Of a stretch of 64,000 bases of DNA, positions 21,986 through 36,032 are shown in pieces. The stretch lies in contig NZ_NIRT01000001.1 of assembly GCF_003207795.1 (NCBI RefSeq), positions 1 to 64,000 on the forward strand, written 5' to 3'. Both the position numbers and the translations under genes were made by a program. The stretch comes from Komagataeibacter nataicola. GTDB taxonomy: Bacteria; Pseudomonadota; Alphaproteobacteria; Acetobacterales; Acetobacteraceae. A model generated the notes under the pieces. It saw nothing but the letters and a program-made list of their open reading frames with translations, was not told the DNA's origin and did not search any database. Position 1 is the first letter of the stretch; each line of letters opens with the position of its first letter.

Positions 21986-22777
21986 TTATTCTTGCCTGCC
22001 ACCCGCCATCAGCACCTCGCCCGTCACCACCTGCCGGGGCCCTGCGGGCGTGTCGAGCAGCAGGATTCCATCTTCCGCCAGCCCCGCAAACGTGCCGCTG
22101 AAGGCCTGGTTGCCTGCCAACACCCGCAGCTTCGTGCCCGGCGGGTGAGCGCGGGCCAGCCACGCCGCGCGTATGGCGTCAAACCCCTGCGCCGCATAAC
22201 ATTCCAGCCAGGCATCAAGGGCGCGAAGCACGGCGCGCGCCATGTCGGGCGGGCTGACCTCAACACCGCATTCGGCCAGACAGGCCAGTTCACGGCCTTC
22301 TATGCGCGGGGCGGCTTTGAGGTTGGCCCCCATGCCGAGCACCTGCCACGGCCCTGCTTCACTGGCCCCGCTCTCGATCAGGATGCCCGCCATCTTGCGC
22401 CCGTGCAGCAGCAGGTCATTGGGCCATTTGAGTTCCAGCGCGCCCGCTTCAGGCACAAAACCCGCCACGGCGTCATATAGCGCAAGCCCTGCAATGAACG
22501 GCCATAACCCCACCGGCACGATCGCCCCCTGCCCCACCAGCATGACCGACAGCGCCAGATTGCCACCCGGATCACACCACCCGCGCCCCCGGCTGCCGCG
22601 CCCGGCTGTCTGTTCCAGCGCCAGCACTGCAAGTCCGTCCTGCCCCTGCCCCGCCGCCAGCATGTCCTTGCACAGGTCGGATGTGGAACCGAGCCTGTCA
22701 TGCACCTGCAACGGCCATGCACGCTCCCTGCTGCGGGGAATGCTCATGGTATGGAAAGCAGGGGGGCTATGGGTCAT
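21986..22777 (-). CDS. birA: Biotin-protein ligase (monofunctional BirA)
   Basis: Activates biotin to biotinyl-AMP and attaches it to the biotin carrier domain of acetyl-CoA carboxylase; 263 residues. The biotin-binding GRGSRGRGW loop, LKWPND and the Lys in GRKMAGILIE are all present, and the C-terminal SH3-like domain ends TGEVLMAGG. The N-terminal DNA-binding helix-turn-helix of E. coli BirA is absent, so it is an enzyme only, as usual in alphaproteobacteria. The first ATG (22777) lies 3 bases after the nuoN stop; the ATG at 22747 is an alternative. It is the last gene of the nuo transcript by spacing. Confidence 0.93.
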   Translation of the reverse strand: MTHSPPAFHTMSIPRSRERAWPLQVHDRLGSTSDLCKDMLAAGQGQDGLAVLALEQTAGRGSRGRGWCDPGGNLALSVMLVGQGAIVPVGLWPFIAGLALYDAVAGFVPEAGALELKWPNDLLLHGRKMAGILIESGASEAGPWQVLGMGANLKAAPRIEGRELACLAECGVEVSPPDMARAVLRALDAWLECYAAQGFDAIRAAWLARAHPPGTKLRVLAGNQAFSGTFAGLAEDGILLLDTPAGPRQVVTGEVLMAGGRQE

Positions 22778-22780
22778 GAA

Positions 22781-24205
22781 CTACCTGAACAATGCGCCTG
22801 CCGCCGCCTGCGCCGCCGTGGCAACCGGGCCGAGTGCTACGATGAAGAACACCGTCACCAGCCCCATGCCAACGGAAACGAACGAGACCGAAACCGGCGC
22901 ACGATCCAGCGCCGGGGCGGCGGCATCGAAAAACATGATCTTGACGATGCGTATATAATAATACGCCCCGATCACGCTACTGATGATACCGATTGCCGCC
23001 AGCCCGTAAAGCTGCGCGTTGATCGCGGCATAGAACACCATCAGCTTGCCAAAGAACCCGGCCAGCGGTGGCGCGCCCGCCATGGAGAACATGAACACCG
23101 CCATGGCCAGCGCCATGCCCGGGTCGCTGCGGCCCAGCCCCGCAAGGTCGCTGATGCGGCTGACCGCACGCCCCTTGCGCCACATGGCCACGATGCCTGC
23201 GAACGCGCCCACGTTCATGAACAGGTACGTCACCAGATAGACCAGCGTGCCGCGCGTGCCCTCCGCCGTGCCGGCCGCAAGCCCGATCATGGCGTAGCCC
23301 ATATGCCCGATGGAGGAATATGCCATGAGCCGCTTGATATTGCCCTGCGGAATGGCGGCCAGCGCGCCAAACACCATCGACGCCGCCGAGACCACCTCGA
23401 TCAGCAGTTGCCACTGGTGCGCCATGGAGCCGAACGGCCCCGCCATCACCCGCAGCAGCACGGCAAATGCCGCGATCTTGGGCGCACCCGCCATATAGGC
23501 GGTCACCGATGTCGGCGCACCCTGGTACACATCGGGCGTCCACATATGGAATGGCACCATGGACAGCTTGAAGCACAGCCCCACCAGCACGAACACGATG
23601 CCAACCATAAGGCCCGCCGGCAGCACCGCGCTGCCGCGCACCGCCTGCTGCAGGCCGGCATAGTCCAGCGTGCCCGCAAAGCCGTAAGCCAGCGAGATGC
23701 CATAAAGCAGAATGCCCGAGGCCAGCGAGCCCAGCACGAAGTATTTCAGCCCCGCCTCCGCCGCCGTAACCTGATCGCGCGCAAATGCACACAGGATGTA
23801 GATGGACAGCGAGGAAAGCTCCAGCCCCACGAACAGGGTCATGAGGTTACCAGATGACGCCATAATCATGGCGCCAAGGGTCGAGAACAGCACCAGCACG
23901 GGGAACTCGAATTTGTCGATTTCCATCTCCCGTGCATAGCCAATGCCCAGCACCAGCGAGAGTGCTGCCCCCGCCAGCGCCAGCACCTTCATGAAGCGCG
24001 CGAAGCCATCATTGATGAAGACATGGCTGTAACCCGTGCCATCGGGCGAGAGCACCACAAGCGCTGCCGTCACCACCAGGGCGAACAGCGTCATCATCGT
24101 GCATGAAAAGAAAGCCTGACCGCGCTTTTGCATCACCCCGGCCAGCAGGATGACCAGCCCGGACAGGGCCAGCACGATTTCGGGCAGAGCAAGTGTCCAG
24201 TTCAT
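22781..24205 (-). CDS. nuoN: NADH-quinone oxidoreductase subunit N
   Basis: Antiporter-like membrane subunit of complex I, 474 residues with about 14 hydrophobic segments. The start MNWTLALPEIVLALSG is a classic NuoN N terminus; GLELSSLSIYILCAF contains the conserved Glu, KLSMVPFHMWTPDVYQGAP the central Lys helix, and the C terminus ends AAQAAAGALFR. The protein is complete at both ends. Unusually it directly follows nuoL: the ATG is 25 bases after the nuoL stop, where nuoM is expected. A CAGGG sequence lies about 10 bases before the ATG. Confidence 0.96.
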   Translation of the reverse strand: MNWTLALPEIVLALSGLVILLAGVMQKRGQAFFSCTMMTLFALVVTAALVVLSPDGTGYSHVFINDGFARFMKVLALAGAALSLVLGIGYAREMEIDKFEFPVLVLFSTLGAMIMASSGNLMTLFVGLELSSLSIYILCAFARDQVTAAEAGLKYFVLGSLASGILLYGISLAYGFAGTLDYAGLQQAVRGSAVLPAGLMVGIVFVLVGLCFKLSMVPFHMWTPDVYQGAPTSVTAYMAGAPKIAAFAVLLRVMAGPFGSMAHQWQLLIEVVSAASMVFGALAAIPQGNIKRLMAYSSIGHMGYAMIGLAAGTAEGTRGTLVYLVTYLFMNVGAFAGIVAMWRKGRAVSRISDLAGLGRSDPGMALAMAVFMFSMAGAPPLAGFFGKLMVFYAAINAQLYGLAAIGIISSVIGAYYYIRIVKIMFFDAAAPALDRAPVSVSFVSVGMGLVTVFFIVALGPVATAAQAAAGALFR

Positions 24206-24230
24206 TGGTTTGGCCCTGACATCCTTGGGG

Positions 24231-26168
24231 TTAGCTGGCGAACAGGATGGTGGTCAGCAGCACCACCAGCCCGATCAGCATGGAAAAGGCATAAACGGCC
24301 ATCGAGCCGGTCTGCACCCGCACGGCCTGCCCGGCGCTGCCCGCAGTCAGTCTGGCCAGCCCTTCGGGTATGGCTTCGACCACGCCTTCGTCAGCGCCCT
24401 TCCACAGCAGCCGCGCCAGCGCACGGTAGGGGCGCACGAACACGGCGTCGTACAGCTCATCGAAATACCATTTGTTGAGCAGGAACAGATAAAGCGGGCG
24501 CAGGCTGCGCGCCAGCGTGGCCGGAATGCCGGGGCTTGCGATGTAGCACAGATAGGCCACCGCAATGCCCGCAACGCCCGCAAATGTGGGCACCAGCGCA
24601 ATCAGGCCCGGTGTCTGCTCAAGGCGCTCCATGATGTCATGCCCCGGCAGGCTGGCAATGGCCCCGCCCCAGAACCCGGCCTGGTTCACACCCACATAGA
24701 ACGGCGCCAGCACCACGCCCGCCACCACCGCGCCGACCGACAGCACCGCAAGCGGCACCATCATGGAAGGCGGGCTTTCATGCGCGCCCTCGTGCAGGTG
24801 CGCATCACGCGGCTGGCCATGAAACACCAGGAAGATCAGCCGCCAGCTATACAGCGCGGTGAGGAACGCGGTGATGCAGCCCATCATCCAGCCATAATGC
24901 CCCATGGAGGAACCCGACATCCACGCGGCCTCCAGAATGGCGTCCTTCGACCAGTAGCCCGCAAACGGGAAGATACCGGCCAGTGCGAGGCTGCCAATCC
25001 ACATGGCGGCGTAGGTATAGGGGATCTTGCGCCACAGCCCGCCCATGCGGAACATGTCCTGCTCGTCATGCACGGCATGGATCACGCAGCCCGCGCCAAG
25101 GAACAAAAGCGCCTTGAAGAAAGCATGCGTGGTGAGGTGGAACATCGAGGCCTGATACGCCCCCACGCCTACGGCCACGAACATGTAGCCAAGCTGCGAG
25201 CAGGTGGAATAGGCGATGGTGCGCTTGATGTCAGGCTGCACCAGCCCCACGGTGGCGGCAAAGAAGCTGGTGGTGCCGCCTATCAGGATAATCAGGTCGC
25301 GGGTTACGGGTGCAAGCTCCACCAGAGGCGACATGCGCACCATCAGGAACACGCCCGCCGTGACCATGGTGGCCGCATGGATCAGCGCCGAGACCGGGGT
25401 CGGCCCCTCCATCGCATCAGGCAGCCAGGTGTGCAGGAACAGTTGTGCCGACTTGCCCATGGCGCCGATGAACAGCAGGGTGGCGATCACCTCCAGCAGC
25501 GGATGCGTGCCGAAAAGCTGGAAGGTGTCATGCACATGATAAGGAATGGCGGCGAAGATCGCATCATACGACACGCTGCCCAGCCGGATATAAATGAGCG
25601 AGATGCCGACAAGGAAGAACAGGTCGGCGATGCGGTTGACCACAAACGCCTTGATGGCGGCGGCACAGGCTGCGGGGCGGTCATACCAGTAACCGATCAG
25701 CAGGTAGCTCGCCAGCCCCACCCCTTCCCAGCCGAAGAAGAGCTGGAGCAGGTTGTCGGACGTGACCAGCATGAGCATGGCGAAGGTGAAAAGTGAAAGA
25801 TAGGAGAAGAAGCGGTAAACCGGCTGCGCCTCATGCGCCATGTAGCCCACGCTGTACACATGCACCAGCAGCGACACGGTCGTGACCATGGCCACCACGC
25901 TGACCGAGAGCATGTCCATGCGCAACTGCCAGTCAGCCGTAAAGCCTGCCGCATGGATCCAGTCGGCCACGGGCACGACAATGGGGTTCACGCCCCCCAT
26001 CTCGTACCCCAGCACCCCAATGGCGGACAGGGCCGCACACAGCATGAGGGCAATGGTGGTGAACCGCGCAGCACTATCGCCCATCAGGCGGCCAAAGCCA
26101 CCGGCGAGAAGAAACCCGATCAGGGGCGCAAAGACCGCGACTTCAAAAAGGAAGGATGCCGCCTGCAT
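24231..26168 (-). CDS. nuoL: NADH-quinone oxidoreductase subunit L
   Basis: Largest antiporter-like membrane subunit of complex I, 645 residues. Recognised by FFGWEGVGLASYLLIGYWY with the conserved Glu, MGKSAQLFLHTWLPDAMEGP with the channel Lys, PVSALIHAATMVTAGV, and the NuoL-specific C-terminal lateral helix followed by a last membrane span (YAFSMLIGLVVLLTTILF). Both ends look intact, so it is not a NuoL/NuoM chimera. It starts 5 bases after nuoK with AAGGAAC in front. The next gene is nuoN, not nuoM. Confidence 0.96.
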   Translation of the reverse strand: MQAASFLFEVAVFAPLIGFLLAGGFGRLMGDSAARFTTIALMLCAALSAIGVLGYEMGGVNPIVVPVADWIHAAGFTADWQLRMDMLSVSVVAMVTTVSLLVHVYSVGYMAHEAQPVYRFFSYLSLFTFAMLMLVTSDNLLQLFFGWEGVGLASYLLIGYWYDRPAACAAAIKAFVVNRIADLFFLVGISLIYIRLGSVSYDAIFAAIPYHVHDTFQLFGTHPLLEVIATLLFIGAMGKSAQLFLHTWLPDAMEGPTPVSALIHAATMVTAGVFLMVRMSPLVELAPVTRDLIILIGGTTSFFAATVGLVQPDIKRTIAYSTCSQLGYMFVAVGVGAYQASMFHLTTHAFFKALLFLGAGCVIHAVHDEQDMFRMGGLWRKIPYTYAAMWIGSLALAGIFPFAGYWSKDAILEAAWMSGSSMGHYGWMMGCITAFLTALYSWRLIFLVFHGQPRDAHLHEGAHESPPSMMVPLAVLSVGAVVAGVVLAPFYVGVNQAGFWGGAIASLPGHDIMERLEQTPGLIALVPTFAGVAGIAVAYLCYIASPGIPATLARSLRPLYLFLLNKWYFDELYDAVFVRPYRALARLLWKGADEGVVEAIPEGLARLTAGSAGQAVRVQTGSMAVYAFSMLIGLVVLLTTILFAS

Positions 26169-26173
26169 GTTCC

Positions 26174-26497
26174 TTACCCCTTCATCATCGTAATATCGTC
26201 GACTTCGATCGAGCCGCGATTACGGAAATACACCGTGACAATGGCCAGCCCGATGGCGGATTCCGCCGCCGCGATGGTCAGCACGAACAGGGTCATCACC
26301 TGCCCCGACAGGTCGCCGGTGGCGGCTGAAAACGCCACGAAATTGATATTGGCCGAAAGCAGGATCAACTCGATTGACATCAGGATGATGATGACGTTCT
26401 TGCGGTTGAGAAAAATGCCGAACACCCCCAGCACCAGCAAAATCGCGCCAATGCTCAGATAGGGTGTCAGGCCGATGGCCTCAATCGGGCTATTCAT
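26174..26497 (-). CDS. nuoK: NADH-quinone oxidoreductase subunit K
   Basis: Small membrane subunit of complex I, 107 residues with three membrane helices. The two conserved glutamates sit in [20 protein letters not shown] and [16 protein letters not shown]. The start at 26497 gives [15 protein letters not shown], and the ATG overlaps the last 8 bases of nuoJ with AGGAGAGGGCG-like sequence just upstream. A slightly longer frame upstream lacks homology. Confidence 0.95.
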
Positions 26498-27263
26498 CGC
26501 CCTCTCCTTTCGTGCCATTCGCAGGCGTCGTCATGACCAGCGCGGTGCCGGTCGTTTCCTGTGCTTCGGCCACGCGCCAGGCCTCGGTGCCATAGGTGCC
26601 GGGCACGGCGGCGATGTCGTAGCTTTCATGCGGGCGCAGGAAGCCGCCCTGGGCATCAACACCCGCGCCAAGCGGCACCTGCAGCATTTCAAGTGAATCA
26701 GTGACCGTGCGGTCATGCTGGCGGTTGATGTTCTGCCGCCGCCCTGTAGGCCGCTCGCGCAGGGTGAGCACGATGGCCCCGATCATGGCCACGAGCAGCA
26801 CCAGCGCGCAGGCCTGGAACAGGAAGATGTAGTGGGTATAGATCACATCTCCCAGCGCCGCCGTGTTGGTGCGCTCGGGCGAGGACGGAACAAGATGCGC
26901 GATCTGCCCGATATTGGAGGCCGACCGCCAGTGCATGAACGCCATGAGCAGTTCAACCAGCAGCACGCCACCCACAATGCCGCCAATGGGCGCGTAACGC
27001 TGCACGCCTTCACGCATGTGCGTGAAATTGACATCCAGCATCATGACCACGAACAGGAACAGCACGGCGACCGCGCCGACATAGACAATGACCAGCGTCA
27101 TCGCCAGGAACTCGGCGCCTGCGATCAGGAACAGGCCTGCCGCGTTGAAGAACGCAAGGATCAGGAACAGCACCGAATGCACGGGGTTGCGCGCGCTCAC
27201 CACCATGGTGGCGGACAGGACGAGAACCGCAGCAAAAACGTAAAAAACAATCTGGGTCATCAT
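26490..27263 (-). CDS. nuoJ: NADH-quinone oxidoreductase subunit J with C-terminal extension
   Basis: Membrane subunit of complex I, 257 residues. The five-helix core includes [20 protein letters not shown], the pi-bulge helix [20 protein letters not shown] and [20 protein letters not shown]. After the usual [11 protein letters not shown] the protein goes on for about 60 hydrophilic residues ([20 protein letters not shown], then a Thr/Gly-rich tail), making it about 50 residues longer than common NuoJ. Start: two adjacent ATG codons at 27263 and 27260, with AGGAAA upstream. It overlaps nuoK by 8 bases. Confidence 0.94.
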
Positions 27264-27341
27264 GGGTAGGTTTCCTGCCGCATGGATGTTTCCTCCTGCT
27301 GGCAAGGCTGCCCCGGCATGGGCCGGGGCGGCCATGCATGT

Positions 27342-27830
27342 TCAGCGGTACGGGGCATCAAGCTCGAGCCTGCGGGCCAGCACGCTTTCCCAGCGGTCGC
27401 CGTTGGCCAGCAGCTTGTTCTTGTCGTACATCAGTTCTTCGCGGGTTTCGGTCGCGAACTCATAATTCGGCCCTTCGACAATCGCATCGACCGGGCAGGC
27501 TTCCTCGCACAGGCCGCAATAGATGCATTTGGTCATGTCGATGTCGTAGCGCGTGGTGCGGCGTGAGCCGTCATCACGCGGTTCGGCCTCGATGGTGATC
27601 GCCTCGGCTGGGCATGTCGCCTCGCACAGCTTGCACGCAATGCAGCGTTCCTCCCCGTTGGGGTAGCGGCGCAGCGCGTGCTCGCCCCGAAAGCGCGGCG
27701 AGAGCACACCCTTTTCATAGGGGTAGTTGATCGTGGCCTTGGGCTTGAAAAACGCCTTCAGCGTTGCCCCCATGCCTGCGGCGAGTTCGGCCAGCAGCAT
27801 GGAGCGGGCGGCTTTGGTTAATGCATTCAT
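27342..27830 (-). CDS. nuoI: NADH-quinone oxidoreductase subunit I
   Basis: Peripheral-arm subunit of complex I carrying clusters N6a and N6b; 162 residues. Two CxxCxxCxxxCP motifs are present: [12 protein letters not shown] and [12 protein letters not shown]. The N terminus [13 protein letters not shown] leads to [14 protein letters not shown], the typical pre-cluster segment. The start at 27830 shares one base with the nuoH stop, so it is translationally coupled. It depends on the suf system further right for its clusters. Confidence 0.96.
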
Positions 27831-28852
27831 CAGCCTGCTCCTCCGGGCAGAAGGCCCGTTACCATCAGGAACCCCGCCGTCAGCACCATCCACGCCAGCG
27901 AGAACGGCAGGAACACCTTCCAGCCCAGCCGCATGAGCTGGTCGTAGCGGTAGCGGGGAAATGTCGCGCGCACCCAGATGAACACGAACAGGCAGAACAG
28001 GATCTTGGCGATCAGCCACAAAGGCCCCGGTATCCATGTAAAGGGTGCCATGGCCAGCGGCGGCAGCCAGCCACCAAGGAACAGGATGCTGACCATGCCG
28101 GACATGAGGAACATGTTCGCGTATTCACCCAGGAAGAACAGGCCGAAGGCGAGCGCGGAATATTCCACAAAGAAGCCCGCCACCAGTTCACTCTCGCCCT
28201 CGGGCAGATCAAACGGCGCGCGGTTGGTCTCGGCCAGTGCCGAGATGAAGAACACGATGAACATCGGGAACATGGGCAGGCAGAACCAAACATGGCGCTG
28301 CGCCAGCACGATGTCGTTGAGGTTGAGGCTGCCCACCGCCAGCAGCACCGACACGATCACCAGCCCGATGGACACTTCATACGACACCATCTGTGCCGCC
28401 GAGCGCAGCCCGCCAAGAAAGGCGTATTTGGAGTTCGACGCCCAGCCCGCGATCAGCATGCCGTAAACGCCGAGCGAGGAGATGGCGAGCAGGTAGAGGA
28501 TGCCCACATTGATGTTGGCAATGGCCAGCCCGTTGCCGGTGGGAATGACCGCCCACGCGATCATGGCCAGCGAGAAGGTCAGGAACGGCGCGAACAGGAA
28601 CAGCATCCTGTTCGCGCCCGAGGGGATGACCGTCTCCTTGGTCAGCATCTTGATGGCATCGGCAAAGGCCTGCAGCACGCCAAACGGACCGTTGACATTC
28701 GGCCCCTTGCGCAGTTGCATCGCGGCCATCACCTTGCGCTCGGCCAGTGTAAGATAGGCCACGCCAAGCAGCAGCGGCACGAGCACCGCGAGCGATTCCA
28801 GCACGATCAGCAGGATCTGGCCCAGGGTGGTGTGAAAGAAGAAATCCGCCAT
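27830..28852 (-). CDS. nuoH: NADH-quinone oxidoreductase subunit H
   Basis: Membrane subunit forming the quinone chamber with NuoB and NuoD; 340 residues, eight helices. The quinone-site loops are present: [40 protein letters not shown] and the acidic [20 protein letters not shown]. The start [12 protein letters not shown] at 28852 lies 4 bases after nuoG; a longer frame overlaps nuoG. Confidence 0.96.
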
Positions 28853-28856
28853 GTCC

Positions 28857-30923
28857 CTACTCCGCCGCCTCGATTGCGGGGCGCACGTAAATCCCCGAAC
28901 AGGTTTCCATGGTCGGGCTTGCGCGACACACGGCATGGGTCAGGTAATAATCGGCAATGACCGGGTAAAAGGGCGTTGCCGCCACCGCAACGCTGCCCGC
29001 CTGCGGCGCCGTGGTGTCCGCTGCGCCGAGGCGGGCATGTTCCGCCTGCCCGTAGGCCGGGTGCGCCTGCGCCATGCGCGCGCGCAGGGACTCGATCGTG
29101 TCATAGGGCAGCTTGCGGCCCGCCACCTCCGAGAAGGCACGCAGGATGCGCCAGTCCTCGCGCGCCTCGCCCGGCGGCATGACCGCGCGGAAGGCGCGCT
29201 GCACGCGGCCTTCGGTATTGGTGTAGGTGCCCGGCTTTTCGGCATAAAGTACTCCGGGCAGGATCACATCCGCCCGCGCCGCCCCCGCATCACCATGATG
29301 GCCCTGATAGATGACGAACGTGTCAGGTCCGATGTCACGCACCGCGAACTCATCCGCGCCGAGCAGCCACAGCACGTCCACCCCACCACCGAGCATGCCC
29401 GCCACGTCACGCCCCTGCGGGCCGGGCACGAGGCCGAGATCCAGCCCCGCCACCCGGCTTGCCGCCGTGTGCAGCACGTTGAAGCCGTGCCAGTCGGGGC
29501 GAATGGCATTCATCTGCACCGCCAGATCCCAGCATGCCTTTGCAATGGCCTGCCCGTCGGGGCGGGTCAGTGCGCCGTGGCCCACGATGATCATGGGGTT
29601 CTTCGCGTTGGCCAGCACCTCGGCAAAGGGCAGTTCGCCTGCTGCGAGTTTCGCCAGCGTGTCCGGCCCCTCGCCCAGCACGGTTGCGGCATAGGTCGGG
29701 TCGGCATTGGGCGCGCCGATCATGGCGATGGGGAATTTACCCCGCCCCGCATCGACAAACCGCCTGCGGATGCGGGCGTTGAGCACCGGGGCTTCCTGCC
29801 GGGGAATGGAGCCTACGATCAGCAGCGCATCCGCCTCGTCAATGCCGGAGATACCGGTATTGAAGGTATAGAAGTCACGGCGGGAAGTATCGTAACGCGC
29901 GCCATCCTGCCTGCAATCAATATTGGGCGAGCCAAGCATGCCCATCAGGTCCTTGAGCGCCATCAGGCTCTCACCGTCGCACATGTCGCCCGCAATCGCG
30001 CCAATGCGCGCGCCCGGCACGCCCTTGAGGCGCGTTGCGATGAGCGAGAACGCATCGGCCCAGCTTGCAGGCTGCAACCTGCCTTCCACCCGCACCCATG
30101 GCCGGTCAAGGCGGCGGCGGCGGAAGCCATCGACCACGAAGCGCCCCTTGTCGGCCAGCCATTCCTCATTCACTTCATCATTGATGCGCGGCACGATGCG
30201 CAGCACCGACGCCCCGCGCGCCTGCATGACGATATTGGTGCCCACCGCATCGCATACATCAATGGAGTCCGTGCGCTTGAGCTCCCAGGGTCGTGCGCTG
30301 AAGGCATAGGGCTGCGAAGTCAGCGCGCCGACGGGGCAGATATCGATCAGGTTGCCTGACAGTTCGGATGTCAGCGCCTTCTCGACGTAATTGGTGATCT
30401 CGAGGTTCTCGCCGCGTGACACGCCGCCAAGTTCCGGCACGCCCGCCACTTCGGTGGAAAAGCGGATGCAGCGCGTGCACTGGATGCAGCGCGTCATGAC
30501 CGTCTTGACCAGCGGGCCGAGATACTTGTCGGTCACCGCGCGCTTGTTCTCGCGGTAGCGCGAATGGTCCGCCCCGTAGCCAAAGGCCTGATCCTGCAGA
30601 TCGCACTCGCCGCCCTGATCGCAGATCGGGCAGTCAAGCGGGTGATTGATGAGCAGGAACTCCATCACTGCCTTGCGCGCGCGGCGCACCACCGCCGTGT
30701 CGGTAAAGATCTGCATGCCATTGCTGATGGGAAAGCCGCATGACGCCACCGGCTTGCGCCCGCCCGAGACCTCAACGAGGCACATGCGGCAGTTCCCCGC
30801 GACCGACAGCCGCTCATGATAGCAAAAGCGCGGTATTTCCTTGCCCGCCGCCTCGCATGCCTGCAGCGCGGAAGAACCGGGGGCTACATCAACCACAATA
30901 CCGTCAACGGTTACTTTAACCAC
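28857..30923 (-). CDS. nuoG: NADH-quinone oxidoreductase subunit G
   Basis: Largest peripheral subunit of complex I, 688 residues. The N-terminal 2Fe-2S ferredoxin domain has [19 protein letters not shown], followed by the His/Cys N5 site and the N4 site ([18 protein letters not shown], then [10 protein letters not shown]). The remainder is a molybdopterin-oxidoreductase-like domain without obvious cofactor, as in other NuoG proteins. The start [16 protein letters not shown] at 30923 follows the nuoF stop by 5 bases. Confidence 0.96.
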
Positions 30924-30928
30924 TGTTC

Positions 30929-32254
30929 CTACTCCGCCGCTTCAACAAGGCCGGTGGGCACCTGCACCGGCCGCCCGCCACCATGGGCCGCCTTGTAGGC
31001 GTGGATGCGTTCTTCCATCACCGGGCGGAACCGGCGGATCAGCCCCTGGATGGGCCACGCCGCCGCATCGCCCAATGCGCAGATGGTGTGGCCTTCCACT
31101 TGGCGGGTAACCTGCTCGAGCATGTCGATTTCCTCGATCTCGGCGCGGCCCTCCACCATGCGTTCCATGATGCGCATCATCCAGCCCGTGCCCTCGCGGC
31201 ACGGCGTGCACTGGCCACAGCTTTCATGCTTGAAGAATTTCGAGAACCGGGCGATGGCCGCGATGATGTCGGTGGATCTGTCCATGACAATCATGCAGCC
31301 GGTGCCAAGGCCGGAGCCTTCGGCGCGCAGGCTGTCATAATCCATCAGCACATTCTCGCACACATCGCGCGGCAGCATGGGCACCGAGCAGCCACCGGGG
31401 ATGACGGCCAGCAGGTTATCCCACCCGCCACGCACGCCACCGCCATGCTTTTCAATGATCTCGCGCATCGGCACGCCCAGCTCTTCTTCAAACACGCATG
31501 GCGTGTTGACGTGGCCCGATATGGCCATGAGCTTGCTACCCGCGTTATTGGGCCGCCCCAGCCCGGCAAACCATGCCGCCCCGCGCCGCAGGATGGTGGC
31601 CGATACCGCGATGCTTTCCACGTTGTTGACCGTGGTGGGGCAGCCATACAGGCCCATGGCGGCGGGGAAAGGCGGCTTCATGCGCGGCTGGCCCTTCTTG
31701 CCCTCAAGGCTTTCGAGCAGGGCCGTTTCCTCACCGCATATGTAAGCACCCGCGCCACGGTGGATGTAGAAGTCAAAATCCCAGCCCGAGCCGCAGGCGT
31801 TCCTGCCAATCAGCCCCGCCTCATATGCCTCGTCAATGGCGTGCTGGAGGTGCATGGCCTCATTGTAAAACTCGCCGCGAATGTAGATGTAGGCCGCATG
31901 CGCCCCCATGGCGAAGGAGGCGATCAGCGCACTTTCCACCAGCTTGTGCGGGTCATGACGCAGGATCTCGCGGTCCTTGCAGGTGCCGGGTTCCGACTCA
32001 TCACCGTTGATGACGAGGTAATGCGGCCGCCCGTCATTCTTGCGCGGCATGAACGACCATTTGACCCCGGTGGGAAAACCCGCCCCACCGCGCCCGCGCA
32101 GGCCCGATGCCTTCATCTCGCCGATGATCGCATCGCGTCCGCGCGCCAGAATTTCCGCCGTGCCATCCCAGTCACCCCGGGCGCGGGCCCCGGCCAGCGT
32201 CCAGTCATTCTGGCCATACAGGTTGGTGAAGATGCGGTCCTTGTCTTGCAACAT
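30929..32254 (-). CDS. nuoF: NADH-quinone oxidoreductase subunit F
   Basis: NADH-binding subunit with FMN and cluster N3; 441 residues. The glycine-rich [13 protein letters not shown] binds [24 protein letters not shown] is the second nucleotide loop, and [11 protein letters not shown] supplies three of four cluster ligands with a later Cys in [13 protein letters not shown]. It starts 5 bases after nuoE and leads into nuoG with the same short spacing. Confidence 0.97.
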
Positions 32255-32259
32255 GCGTT

Positions 32260-32910
32260 TTACCCCTGCCCCTGCGGCTTGGCCGCCGCATCATCCACCA
32301 GCACCTTGCGCCCGCCTGCGGGGGCGGAACTCATGCGGTCGATGGTGGGGCCGGGCGTGGGGCGCTCGCCACGCTTCAGCGCCTCGATCAGCTCAAGCGT
32401 ACGCGGACCGTCGAGATCCTCGTAGTAATCATCATCAACCTGCAGGATCGGGGCATTGGCGCAGGCGCCAAGACATTCCACCTCCGTCAGGGTGAACAGG
32501 CCGTCCGCACTCGTCTCGCCAAATGCCTTTATGCCCGTGGCCGCCTTGCAGGCCGCCGTCACATCATCCGACCCGCGCAGCCAGCACGAGGTGGTGGTGC
32601 ACACCTGCAGGTGATAGCGACCAATCGGCTTCGTGTTGAACATGAGGTAGAAGGTCGCGACCTCGTAAACCCGGATCGGAGCCATTTCGAGGCGTTCGGC
32701 CACCACGTCCATGGCGATGCGCGGAATCCACGCGCTGCCGGTCTGGCGGCCCATCTGCTTCTGCACCACGTAAAGCAGCGGCAGCACGCCGCTTGCCTTG
32801 CGCTCGGGCGGGTATTTGGCAAGGATCCCCGCAATCTGCTGCTCGCTCTCGGCATCAAATGCGAAATGGGTGGGTTCCGCGCCCCCGGGCGCAGTGAGTT
32901 GGGTGGACAT
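32260..32910 (-). CDS. nuoE: NADH-quinone oxidoreductase subunit E
   Basis: Thioredoxin-fold 2Fe-2S subunit (cluster N1a) that pairs with NuoF; 216 residues. Ligands are in [10 protein letters not shown] and [10 protein letters not shown]. The N-terminal four-helix part includes [12 protein letters not shown] and [11 protein letters not shown]. The ATG at 32910 is preferred because AGGTGA lies 8 bases upstream; a GTG at 32919 that overlaps the nuoD stop is a possible longer start. The 60-residue C-terminal tail ([20 protein letters not shown]) is low-complexity. Confidence 0.94.
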
Positions 32911-32915
32911 GTCGG

Positions 32916-34172
32916 TCACCTGTCAATCTCGCCAAACACCAGGTCGAGCGACCCGATGATGGCCACGGCATCCGCCAGCATGTGGCGGCGCGACATCTCG
33001 TCGATTGCCTGGAGATGGGAAAAACCCGTGGGCCGGATCTTGCAGCGATACGGCCGGTTGCTGCCATCGGCTACCAGATACACGCCAAACTCGCCTTTCG
33101 GCGTTTCGGTCACGGTATAGGTGGCGCCGGGAGGCACGTGATAGCCTTCGGTAAACAGCTTGAAGTGATGGATCAGCGCCTCCATCGAGCGCTTCATCTC
33201 GCGCCGGGGCGGCGGCGTGATCTTGTGATCCTGCACCTTGACCGGGCCGGGACGGATCTGCTCGAGGCACTGGTTGATGATGCTGACACTCTCGCGCATC
33301 TCGGCCACGCGCACGAGGTAACGGTCATAGCAGTCACCCTGCCGGCCCACGGGCACGTTGAAGTGTACCTTGTCGTAATTGTCATAGGGCTGGCTGCGCC
33401 GCAGGTCCCACGGCACGCCCGAGGCCCGCAGGCATGGGCCGCTGAAGCCCCAGGCCAGCGCCTGCTCGGTGGTGAACACGCCGATGCCCACCGTGCGCTG
33501 TTTCCAGATGCGGTTGCTGGTCAGCAGGGATTCAAGATCGTCAATCCATTGCGGGAAGGTGCGCGCCCAGTTGGCAATGCGTTCCTCCAGCCCGGCGGGC
33601 AGGTCCTGCGCCACGCCGCCGGGGCGGACGTAATTGGCATGAAAGCGCGCGCCCGATGCGGCCTCATAGAACTCGATCAGCTTCTCGCGTTCCTCATAAC
33701 CCCACAGCGCGGGGGTAAGCGCCCCGCAATCCAGCCCGAAAGACGTCAGGTTGAGGATGTGGTTGAGGATGCGCGTGATCTCGGCAAACATCACGCGGAT
33801 CCATTTCGCGCGATCCGGAGCCTCGATGTTGAGCAGCTTTTCCACCGCCAGCGCAAAGGCCTGCTCCTCGCACATGGGCGAGACGTAATCGAGCCGGTCG
33901 AAATACGGCAGCGCCTTGGGGTAGGTCTTGTATTCGATCAGCTTTTCCGTGCCGCGATGCAAAAGCCCCACATGCGGGATGGCGCGGGCCACGACCTCGC
34001 CCTCCATTTCCAGCACCAGGCGCAGCACGCCGTGGGCGGAGGGATGCTGGGGGCCGAAGTTCAGCGCATGGGAATCAATTTCCACCACATGGCGCTTCAC
34101 CTCGCCATCAGGCTCTTCTGGCAGCAGGCTGTCGGGAATGTCCGTATCGCTACGAAGGGTGACATCGCTCAT
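32916..34172 (-). CDS. nuoD: NADH-quinone oxidoreductase subunit D
   Basis: 49-kDa-type subunit lining the quinone site, related to NiFe hydrogenase large subunits but without the metal; 418 residues. Motifs include [19 protein letters not shown] with the quinone-site His, [20 protein letters not shown], and the C-terminal DLVFGEIDR. The start MSDVTLRSD at 34172 lies 4 bases after nuoC; extra N-terminal residues upstream lack homology. Confidence 0.97.
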
Positions 34173-34176
34173 CGGC

Positions 34177-34842
34177 TTAGCCCTTTCGCTTGATGTCGTG
34201 GCGGTCGGCATGGGCCTTTTCATCGCCGGGCAGGGTCAGGATGCCTTCCCATGGCGATTCAAAGTCGAAATTGCGGAAATCCTGCACCAGATCGACCGGC
34301 TCATAGACCACCTGCCGCCGTTCCTCGTCGTACCGCATCTCGACATATCCGGTCAGCGGGAAGTCCTTGCGCAGCGGATGCCCCTCAAAGCCGTAATCGG
34401 TCAGGATGCGGCGCAGGTCCGGCTGGTCGGTGAACAGAATGCCGAACAGGTCATAGGCTTCGCGCTCCCACCATGTGGCGGCGGGCCAGAGCTGGTGCAC
34501 CGACGGCACGGGATGGGTCTCGTCCGTGGTCACGATCACGCGGATGCGGTGATTATGGGTGACCGACAGCAGGTTGTAGACCACCTCGAACCGCTCGGGC
34601 CGATCGGGAAAGTCCACGCCGCATATGTCCATCACCTGCTGGCAGGCATAAAGCGGGTCATCGCGCAGCATGGCCATGAGGGGGAGCAGGCGGTCGCGTG
34701 TGGTACGCACCACCAGTTCGCCCTTTTCGATGCCAGCGGACATGATGCCCGGCACGGTAGTGGAAAGCCGGAAGCTGATGGCCCCAAGGCTGCCCGTGAC
34801 CCCGCGCGGCGCGGTGGCGGGAAGGTTCTGCACATCAGCCAC
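34177..34842 (-). CDS. nuoC: NADH-quinone oxidoreductase subunit C
   Basis: 30-kDa-type peripheral subunit of complex I, 221 residues. The signature [12 protein letters not shown], then [14 protein letters not shown] and [20 protein letters not shown], are diagnostic. The gene is separate from nuoD here, unlike the E. coli nuoCD fusion. Its start overlaps the end of nuoB by 8 bases. Confidence 0.97.
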
Positions 34843-35416
34843 GGCGGATCGTCCCCGTCCTGCGGATCTTCTTCTGCAGTTGCAGGATGCCGTAGATCAG
34901 CGCCTCCGCCGTGGGCGGGCAGCCGGGCACATACACATCCACCGGCACGATCCGGTCACACCCGCGCACGACAGAGTAGGAATAATGGTAATACCCGCCC
35001 CCATTGGCGCATGACCCCATGGAGATGACCCAGCGCGGCTCGGCCATCTGGTCGTAAACGCGGCGCAGGGCCGGGGCCATTTTGTTGGTCAGCGTGCCCG
35101 CCACGATCATCACATCGGACTGGCGCGGCGAGCCGCGCGGAATGATGCCCATGCGGTCAAGGTCATAGCGCGGCATGTAGGCGTGGATCATCTCCACCGC
35201 ACAGCAGGCCAGCCCGAATGACATGGGCCACAGGCTGCCCGTGCGCCCCCAGTTGACCAGCTTGTCGAGACTGGCGACGACAAAGCCCTTTTCCGTCATT
35301 TCGCCGGTGATGCCCTTTATCACCGCATCCTGCTCCGGCCCCGGGGGCAGCATGTCGCGGTTCCAGGCAATGCTGTCAGCGGGCCGGCCCGGCCCTGAGG
35401 TATCGTCGTTGCCCAT
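34835..35416 (-). CDS. nuoB: NADH-quinone oxidoreductase subunit B
   Basis: Carries terminal cluster N2 next to quinone; 193 residues. Ligands are in the tandem-Cys [10 protein letters not shown], in [12 protein letters not shown] and in [11 protein letters not shown]. The start at 35416 is chosen because AAGGGGAGG precedes it by 8 bases; an upstream ATG at 35437, two bases after the nuoA stop, would add seven residues. Confidence 0.95.
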
Positions 35417-35439
35417 TGGGGCGCCTCCCCTTGTCATGC

Positions 35440-35805
35440 TCAATCCCAGTCCAGCGCGCCCTTGCTCCATTCGTAAATGAAGCCGACGACCAGAACGCCA
35501 AGGAAACCCATCATGGATACGAAGCCGAACCAGCCGATGCGCGACAGGCTGAGCGCCCAGGGAAAGAGGAAAGCGACCTCAAGGTCGAAAATGATGAACA
35601 GGATCGCCACCAGATAGAACCGCACGTCAAACCGGCGGCGGGCATTGTCAAATGCCTCGAAACCACATTCATAGGCCGACGTTTTCTCGGCATAGGGTTT
35701 CTGGTGGCCAAAAAGCAGCGAGCTGCCCAGCATGGCCCCCGCGATCACCACAGCAATGCACCCGAATATCAGTACGGGCAAATAATCAGCGATAACGGAA
35801 TGCAT
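35440..35805 (-). CDS. nuoA: NADH-quinone oxidoreductase subunit A
   Basis: Small membrane subunit of complex I and first gene of the nuo operon; 121 residues with three helices. Key elements are [20 protein letters not shown] in the quinone-site loop and [18 protein letters not shown]. The start [15 protein letters not shown] at 35805 has GGAAG just before it; a TTG at 35820 could add five residues. All following nuo genes overlap or lie within 80 bases, so one transcript of about 13 kb is likely. Confidence 0.95.
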
Positions 35806-36032
35806 CTTCCGTGTTCCCAACCTGTTAATACGCCGCCCGGTGTCTTTATCGACTTATGTGTGGCTGAACGGATGCTAGCCCCAACCCGGTGGGGGGAACA
35901 GTTACTTAACCGTGTGCATTCATGAACATTACCGTGAAGATGAATACAGTAACGCTTCCGTTAACACGGCCCTGTCATGACTATAATGGTACGATTTATT
36001 ATTCTCATTTTTCCGTGTGGAAAAACGGGCAT
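35806..36032. other. Promoter region of the nuo operon
   Basis: About 230 bases between nuoA and the tRNA terminator, AT-richer than its surroundings and without a gene. The nuo promoter must lie here on the minus strand. An imperfect palindrome GTTAACGGAAGCGTTAC occurs around 35950-35966. No regulator site was recognised. Confidence 0.45.

Follow-up and report, generated by a model that had tools for sequence, protein, structure and literature searches.

A nuoM-less complex I operon in Komagataeibacter nataicola and the stand-alone nuoM of acetic acid bacteria

The complex I operon in the 64,000-nucleotide stretch of Komagataeibacter nataicola DNA analysed here (the window; part of contig C18 of genome G000, an assembly of 105 contigs and 3.67 Mb) has no nuoM, the gene for one of the three antiporter-like proton channels of the enzyme. 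The original prediction offered two readings of this: that nuoM has moved elsewhere in the genome, or that complex I in this organism contains two antiporter-like subunits, with a changed proton stoichiometry. We are confident of an answer close to the first, namely that the organism has a full complex I of 14 subunits with all three antiporter-like channels, the gene nuoM being placed apart from the other 13.

The nuo operon of the window

Thirteen Nuo proteins encoded in the window were identified, 12 by curated NCBIfam models and NuoA by Pfam. Their genes, the nuoL-nuoN junction and the gene past nuoN are as follows.

21986-22777, minus strand: birA, next gene past nuoN (TIGR00121 124.6 bits)
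22781-24205, minus strand: nuoN, 474 aa (NF004440 588.8 bits, TIGR01770 463.5 bits, above cut-off)
24206-24230, minus strand: nuoL-nuoN junction, 25 bp, with no nuoM remnant; the site of nuoM in sampled relatives outside the nuoM-less clade
24231-26168, minus strand: nuoL, 645 aa, full length including the C-terminal lateral-helix region (TIGR01974 779.8 bits, 4-629/630)
26174-26518, minus strand: nuoK (ORF; match from residue 14; NF004323 154.6 bits)
26490-27335, minus strand: nuoJ (ORF; match from residue 26; NF005164 269.8 bits)
27342-28037, minus strand: nuoI (ORF; match from residue 72; NF004539 305.7 bits)
27830-28936, minus strand: nuoH (ORF; match from residue 33; NF004745 512.8 bits)
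28857-30923, minus strand: nuoG (TIGR01973 708.5 bits)
30929-32254, minus strand: nuoF (NF010120 820.7 bits)
32260-32919, minus strand: nuoE (TIGR01958 163.9 bits)
32916-34223, minus strand: nuoD, a gene distinct from nuoC (NF004739 604.4 bits)
34177-34842, minus strand: nuoC (NF004733 283.4 bits)
34835-35470, minus strand: nuoB (NF005012 266.9 bits)
35440-35820, minus strand: nuoA (PF00507 133.2 bits; no NCBIfam match at 1e-30)

The coordinates confirm the gene order that had been described, nuoA through nuoL and then directly nuoN, which starts 25 bp past the nuoL stop; this differs from the canonical single-cluster operon of 14 genes, 13 being in the window and nuoM on another contig. Also upheld was the claim that the C-terminal helix of NuoL and the N terminus of NuoN are intact, without fusion or chimera: the TIGR01974 match to NuoL takes in 4-629 of 630 model positions and the NF004440 match to NuoN 8-477 of 477. 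Neither these profile matches nor a tblastn search of 24101-24330 gave any sign of a fusion, a chimera or a nuoM remnant at the junction, the best match of three NuoM proteins in that interval having an E value of only 0.3. The residues tested, E133, K217, K247 and K395 in NuoN (E. coli numbering) and E144, K229, K342 and K399 in NuoL, are all conserved in the window proteins.

A stand-alone nuoM and its distribution

Searching the whole genome with PF00361 returned four proteins: NuoL, NuoN, a full NuoM on contig C49 and a distant HyfB-like protein. The nuoM gene (G000:C49:154413-155948) is complete and encodes 511 aa, counted from the ATG in agreement with the NuoM models (527 aa in the mechanical ORF, which starts at a GTG further upstream). 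Its product matches over its full length above the curated cut-offs of NF004499 (593.0 bits, cut-off 585) and TIGR01972 (559.3 bits, cut-off 263.8, positions 1-483/486), and it scores higher with NuoM models than with Mrp models, MrpD being compared by profiles. The genome-wide search for NuoM that had been proposed thus yielded one complete gene, on another contig, which bears out the reading that nuoM has moved elsewhere. The gene stands alone; mutL, in the same orientation, ends 134 bp upstream of it, and parE faces it from the other side. Among named relatives, those nearest to its product are from Komagataeibacter. Two solved NuoM proteins match it near full length, PDB 8qby chain M (441 bits) and the E. 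coli 7p61 chain M (283 bits); in E. coli, nuoL and nuoN flank nuoM. The organism of 8qby we take to be Paracoccus, whose nuoM presumably likewise lies between nuoL and nuoN in its operon.

All 19 genomes of the genus that we examined have one NuoM of the stand-alone type outside the operon, and their nuoL and nuoN matches lie too close together to fit nuoM, so that the comparison of junctions among relatives returned the same nuoM-less junction in 19/19. The order mutL, nuoM and the opposing parE was found in 18/18 genus relatives fetched as well as in G000, and on single contigs of G004, G011, G012, G013 and G017 some 435-720 kb separate nuoM from the nuo operon.

Beyond the genus, the gap between nuoL and nuoN was -1 to 70 bp in 18/18 nuoM-less operons fetched (one per genome, 11 genera), versus 1510-1575 bp in 18 same-type operons that include nuoM (the ranges leave out mis-extracted values for L055, L095 and L076). 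Same-type Acetobacteraceae operons outside the nuoM-less clade share the order of nuoK, nuoL and nuoN and have orthologous NuoL and NuoN, but carry nuoM between nuoL and nuoN; this was seen in 20/21, the remaining one being cut by a contig end. The gene after nuoN is birA in 18/18 nuoM-less operons and in 19/21 same-type operons with nuoM.

Among 397 genomes of the family, stand-alone-type NuoM (at least 798.9 bits with alignment A1, the next group reaching at most 710.7) occurred in 66, of which 63 belong to 11 genera and three to genus g89; the direct adjacency of nuoL and nuoN was checked in 18 of the 63, covering all 11 genera. In our samples the nuoM-less operons make up one clade, the acetic acid bacteria, with Acetobacter, Gluconacetobacter, Novacetimonas, Commensalibacter and Endobacter among its genera. 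A scan of named genomes, whose query was made from stand-alone sequences and so favours stand-alone loci, confirmed 107 loci, and the best 80 of them came from Komagataeibacter, Novacetimonas, Gluconacetobacter, Acetobacter, Ameyamaea, Commensalibacter, Endobacter, Lichenicoccus and unclassified genomes. At these 80 loci mutL was upstream in 65 and parE downstream in 53, and neither nuoL nor nuoN was beside nuoM in any (flanks of 4 kb where the contig allowed). As a separate observation, 14 of the 80 flanks, mostly from Acetobacter species (e.g. L186, L187, L206, L208 and L228), held none of the query's neighbours; some of these flanks are cut by contig ends, and nuoM may have moved again at these loci.

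Seven sampled genomes of the family (G025, G052, G060, G088, G093, G119 and G128) have neither the window-type operon nor a stand-alone-type NuoM, and their sole antiporter-like matches are one L-M-N cluster of another type; this joint absence counts in favour of our explanation.

A probable single displacement: move or replacement

The nuoM-less operons form one clade in a tree of NuoL and NuoN together (14 of 34 rows, 100/100; G004, G017, G124 and G125 left out), as do their genomes in a tree of RpoB (12 of 27 rows, 100/99; of 30 genomes searched, two had no match and one a fragment only), and because of this agreement a single loss from the operon is the simplest reading. In a midpoint-rooted tree of NuoN alone, one nuoM-less row, G019, falls at the base of the nuoM-bearing rows. 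The stand-alone NuoM rows likewise form one clade (15 rows, 100/100). Together with the operon NuoM of the same type (36 rows in all) they lie across a 100/100 branch from 27 rows of other families, and a branch with SH-aLRT 100 parts them from the 22 rows of the family's other operon type in a tree that leaves out 13 genus rows; the stand-alone protein thus groups with the complex I NuoM of this operon type and not with another type of NuoM. On these sequence comparisons, nuoM was most likely displaced once, in the ancestor of the acetous clade, either because the operon copy itself moved or because a second copy was gained and the original one lost.

Transfer of the stand-alone gene from outside the family found no support, its clade falling inside the family in a tree that included only the 27 best non-family loci and left out the family's other operon type. 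Outside the family, the best scores were 668 bits among the 289 genomes of the class sample and 656 bits among the 249 of the phylum sample; the next-best NuoM type within the family reached 711 bits (397 genomes).

One observation counts against our explanation: the stand-alone NuoM diverges from operon NuoM (mean identity 0.50) beyond what NuoL (0.58) and NuoN (0.55) show in the same genome pairs, although inside each group its conservation is close to theirs. The means over 280 pairs of nuoM-less and nuoM-bearing genomes were 0.499 for NuoM, 0.576 for NuoL and 0.552 for NuoN (G004, G012, G017 and G125 left out on the nuoM-less side), and those within the two groups were 0.629 and 0.667, 0.653 and 0.630, and 0.629 and 0.607, respectively. 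The stem of the stand-alone clade measures 0.55 in one tree and 0.91 in another (0.66 + 0.25 across the midpoint root), versus 0.22 for the NuoL and NuoN stem of the nuoM-less clade. The long stem and lower identity would fit a second copy replacing the first, or a burst of change after a move.

Replacement is a variant of our preferred explanation, to be set against movement in one step. It holds that another, divergent nuoM appeared outside the operon, by origin there or by acquisition, coexisted with the first and took over as core proton channel in the ancestor of the acetic acid bacteria, where the operon copy was lost, with genus g89 keeping both. All three g89 genomes do carry an operon NuoM together with a stand-alone NuoM of the acetous type, and the one included in the tree splits off first within the stand-alone clade; RpoB sets g89 beside the nuoM-less clade, weakly (79/67), and extra stand-alone NuoM copies have arisen separately in genera g4 and g11. 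However, the extra g89 gene occupies a different site, flanked by a tRNA-synt_1c gene and an ORF for which Pfam gave no match at 1e-5, with no mutL and no parE, and possibly came by transfer. A recent duplication shared with g89 predicts a clade of stand-alone NuoM and the g89 operon copy, which was rejected (p-AU 0.002), and NuoL with NuoN place g89 with the nuoM-bearing G047 and G090, joining it to the nuoM-less clade having a p-AU of 0.068. The stand-alone clade groups with the operon NuoM of g22, g63 and g85 (99/98), which also fits vertical descent if these genera are, as we guess, the acidophilic sister clade, and long branches may distort all these trees. We regard replacement as a tentative reading, appreciably less probable than its negation. 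Were it true, a divergent homologue would have taken the place of one membrane-arm subunit in an enzyme that was otherwise inherited vertically.

An acidophilic sister clade is described in PMC10715153, and the term nuoM is absent from its main text. The phenomenon itself is already in print in passing, because nuoM (APT_00690) is listed apart from the nuo operon in A. pasteurianus SKU1108 (PMC5158111), the passage saying nothing of how this arose or how widespread it is. 'Split' complex I clusters in general are treated in PMC12361115, where, in the sections consulted, neither nuoM nor the acetous clade is singled out; the plasmid-borne Nuo set of K. saccharivorans reported there is a separate matter. 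One nuo tree was built on nuoHIJKLN with nuoM omitted, in an article that gives G. diazotrophicus two nuo operons (PMC4596401). A point against our explanation is that in G. diazotrophicus a single Fur box is followed by a set of nuo genes that includes nuoM (PMC9368920); because a fused nuoCD is named there, we take this set to be probably the second nuo operon of that organism. The label 'nuoA-nuoN' has been applied to operons called complete in A. pasteurianus 386B and G. diazotrophicus, the ranges given in the relevant parts of those reports covering only 12 and 13 locus tags (PMC3751514, PMC2765452). Within the open-licence PMC literature we found no paper on a clade-wide displacement of nuoM, and did not find in print its clade-wide extent, the genus with both operon and stand-alone NuoM (3/3 genomes) or the long stand-alone stem.

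Signs of retained function and the remaining readings

The equivalents of E. coli NuoM residues E144, K234, K265, H322, H348 and E407 are all kept in G000 NuoM, and the six are unchanged in 116/116 stand-alone-type rows (80 from the scan of named genomes, being the best 80 of 107, 33 from a second set that overlaps the first, and three from g89). Three of them, E144, K234 and K265, are described in PMC5061711 as essential to the E. coli protein. For six genome pairs dN/dS was 0.04-0.18 for stand-alone nuoM, 0.04-0.21 for nuoL and 0.02-0.17 for nuoN; judged by these ratios, purifying selection acts on the stand-alone NuoM as it does on NuoL and NuoN. In the tabulated proteome of A. pasteurianus (PMC10742644), NuoM (fig_HN.1610) was detected and is numbered far from the Nuo block (fig_HN.3342-3354). 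Its changes of 0.62/0.33/2.16/1.78, versus 0.33/0.20/2.54/2.40 for NuoC, are in the same direction as those of the ten block Nuo proteins listed, with the exception of NuoN, which was unchanged (0.93) in the first of the four comparisons.

In the 19 genus genomes the mutL-nuoM spacer is 121-134 bp long and variable at most bases, with a conserved block, CTCTGCATAATGTGAGCG or near-identical, about 55-70 bp upstream of the nuoM start and a second conserved block, CTGGATTC-like, after it. A consensus scan found no sigma-70-like site upstream of nuoM, nor any terminator-like site above chance level between nuoM and parE. Transcription of nuoM from its own promoter, at the conserved element about 55-70 bp before the start, is thus suggested by conservation, the scan having given no sigma-70-like site. 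The product would then insert into the membrane and assemble in trans between NuoN and NuoL, so that the usual proton stoichiometry would apply. Most likely the enzyme still has all three channels, as far as can be judged from the genes.

A true two-antiporter complex I, in which NuoN meets NuoL directly, fewer protons are pumped per NADH and the stand-alone NuoM has another role, draws on the operon without nuoM and on the divergence of the stand-alone protein. It is very improbable. This second reading of the original prediction lost its basis because a complete nuoM is present on C49 (154413-155948), and it is contradicted further by the intact channel residues and by the presence of nuoM in 19/19 genus genomes. 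A complete NuoM with intact residues accompanies every nuoM-less operon fetched (18/18 genomes), and in a 120-genome sample of the family all 111 genomes with any hit also have a protein above the NuoM cut-off. The abundance of NuoM also tracks that of most other subunits in the A. pasteurianus data (PMC10742644, as cited).

A second, distinct complex I set with adjoining nuoL, nuoM and nuoN occurs in 12 of the 19 genus genomes (G001, G002, G003, G005, G007, G009, G010, G011, G012, G014, G017 and G018), and its nuoM could therefore pass for the missing one. Still fainter, for all that, is the prospect that such a set, Mrp or the HyfB-like protein of G000 fills the role of NuoM: neither a second set nor any additional PF00361 protein is present in G000, and its HyfB-like protein scores about 25 bits with TIGR01972 (cut-off 263.8), so we rejected a second complex I and the HyfB-like protein as substitutes in this genome.

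Least credible of all, to the point of being negligible, is an assembly collapse or strain artefact that deleted nuoM from the junction, the former of which had been named as what would undo the finding: G000 is a 105-contig draft, but the identical junction in 19/19 independently assembled genus genomes (five on contigs of 2.9-3.5 Mb), whose nuoL and nuoN match coordinates leave no space for nuoM, and in 18/18 fetched nuoM-less operons from 11 genera, rules it out.

The complex I of Komagataeibacter and other acetic acid bacteria is accordingly not to be modelled as a two-channel pump, and operon-based annotation and metabolic models can overlook one of its three proton channels. The bioenergetics are ordinary, and what remains is a modest evolutionary question, move versus replacement. 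For the study of assembly in trans, the clade offers a natural case of a membrane-arm subunit with a locus of its own, and the genus with two NuoM copies is material for comparative work on subunit replacement.

Other antiporter-like proteins gave observations of their own. In all five genomes of genus g49 (G066, G130, G195, G232 and G263; loci L074, L076 and L258-L262), the operon NuoM, of the main operon type, has Asn for the transmembrane lysine equivalent to E. coli K265, and in four of the five it is the sole protein above the NuoM cut-off; on its sequence, this NuoM makes a stronger case for an altered proton channel than does the nuoM-less operon of the window. Asn at the K265 equivalent is also found in extra NuoM copies of genera g11 and g4 (L078/L265 of G028, L080/L264 of G108 and L263 of G250), that of G028 having Tyr at the H348 equivalent as well. 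In the tree, the extra copies in G028 and G108 derive from their group's operon NuoM, and an extra copy was present in two of seven g4 genomes searched. One operon NuoM row, L082 (G095), looks frameshifted and has an odd residue at position 403. The HyfB-like region (G000:C18:140428-144861; L006:429-4862) scores 50 bits with NF005086 (cut-off 667) and is followed by three further overlapping ORFs without Pfam match; weak TIGR01972 matches akin to its protein occur in 17/19 genus genomes, and the region is possibly a divergent hydrogenase-4-like membrane module.
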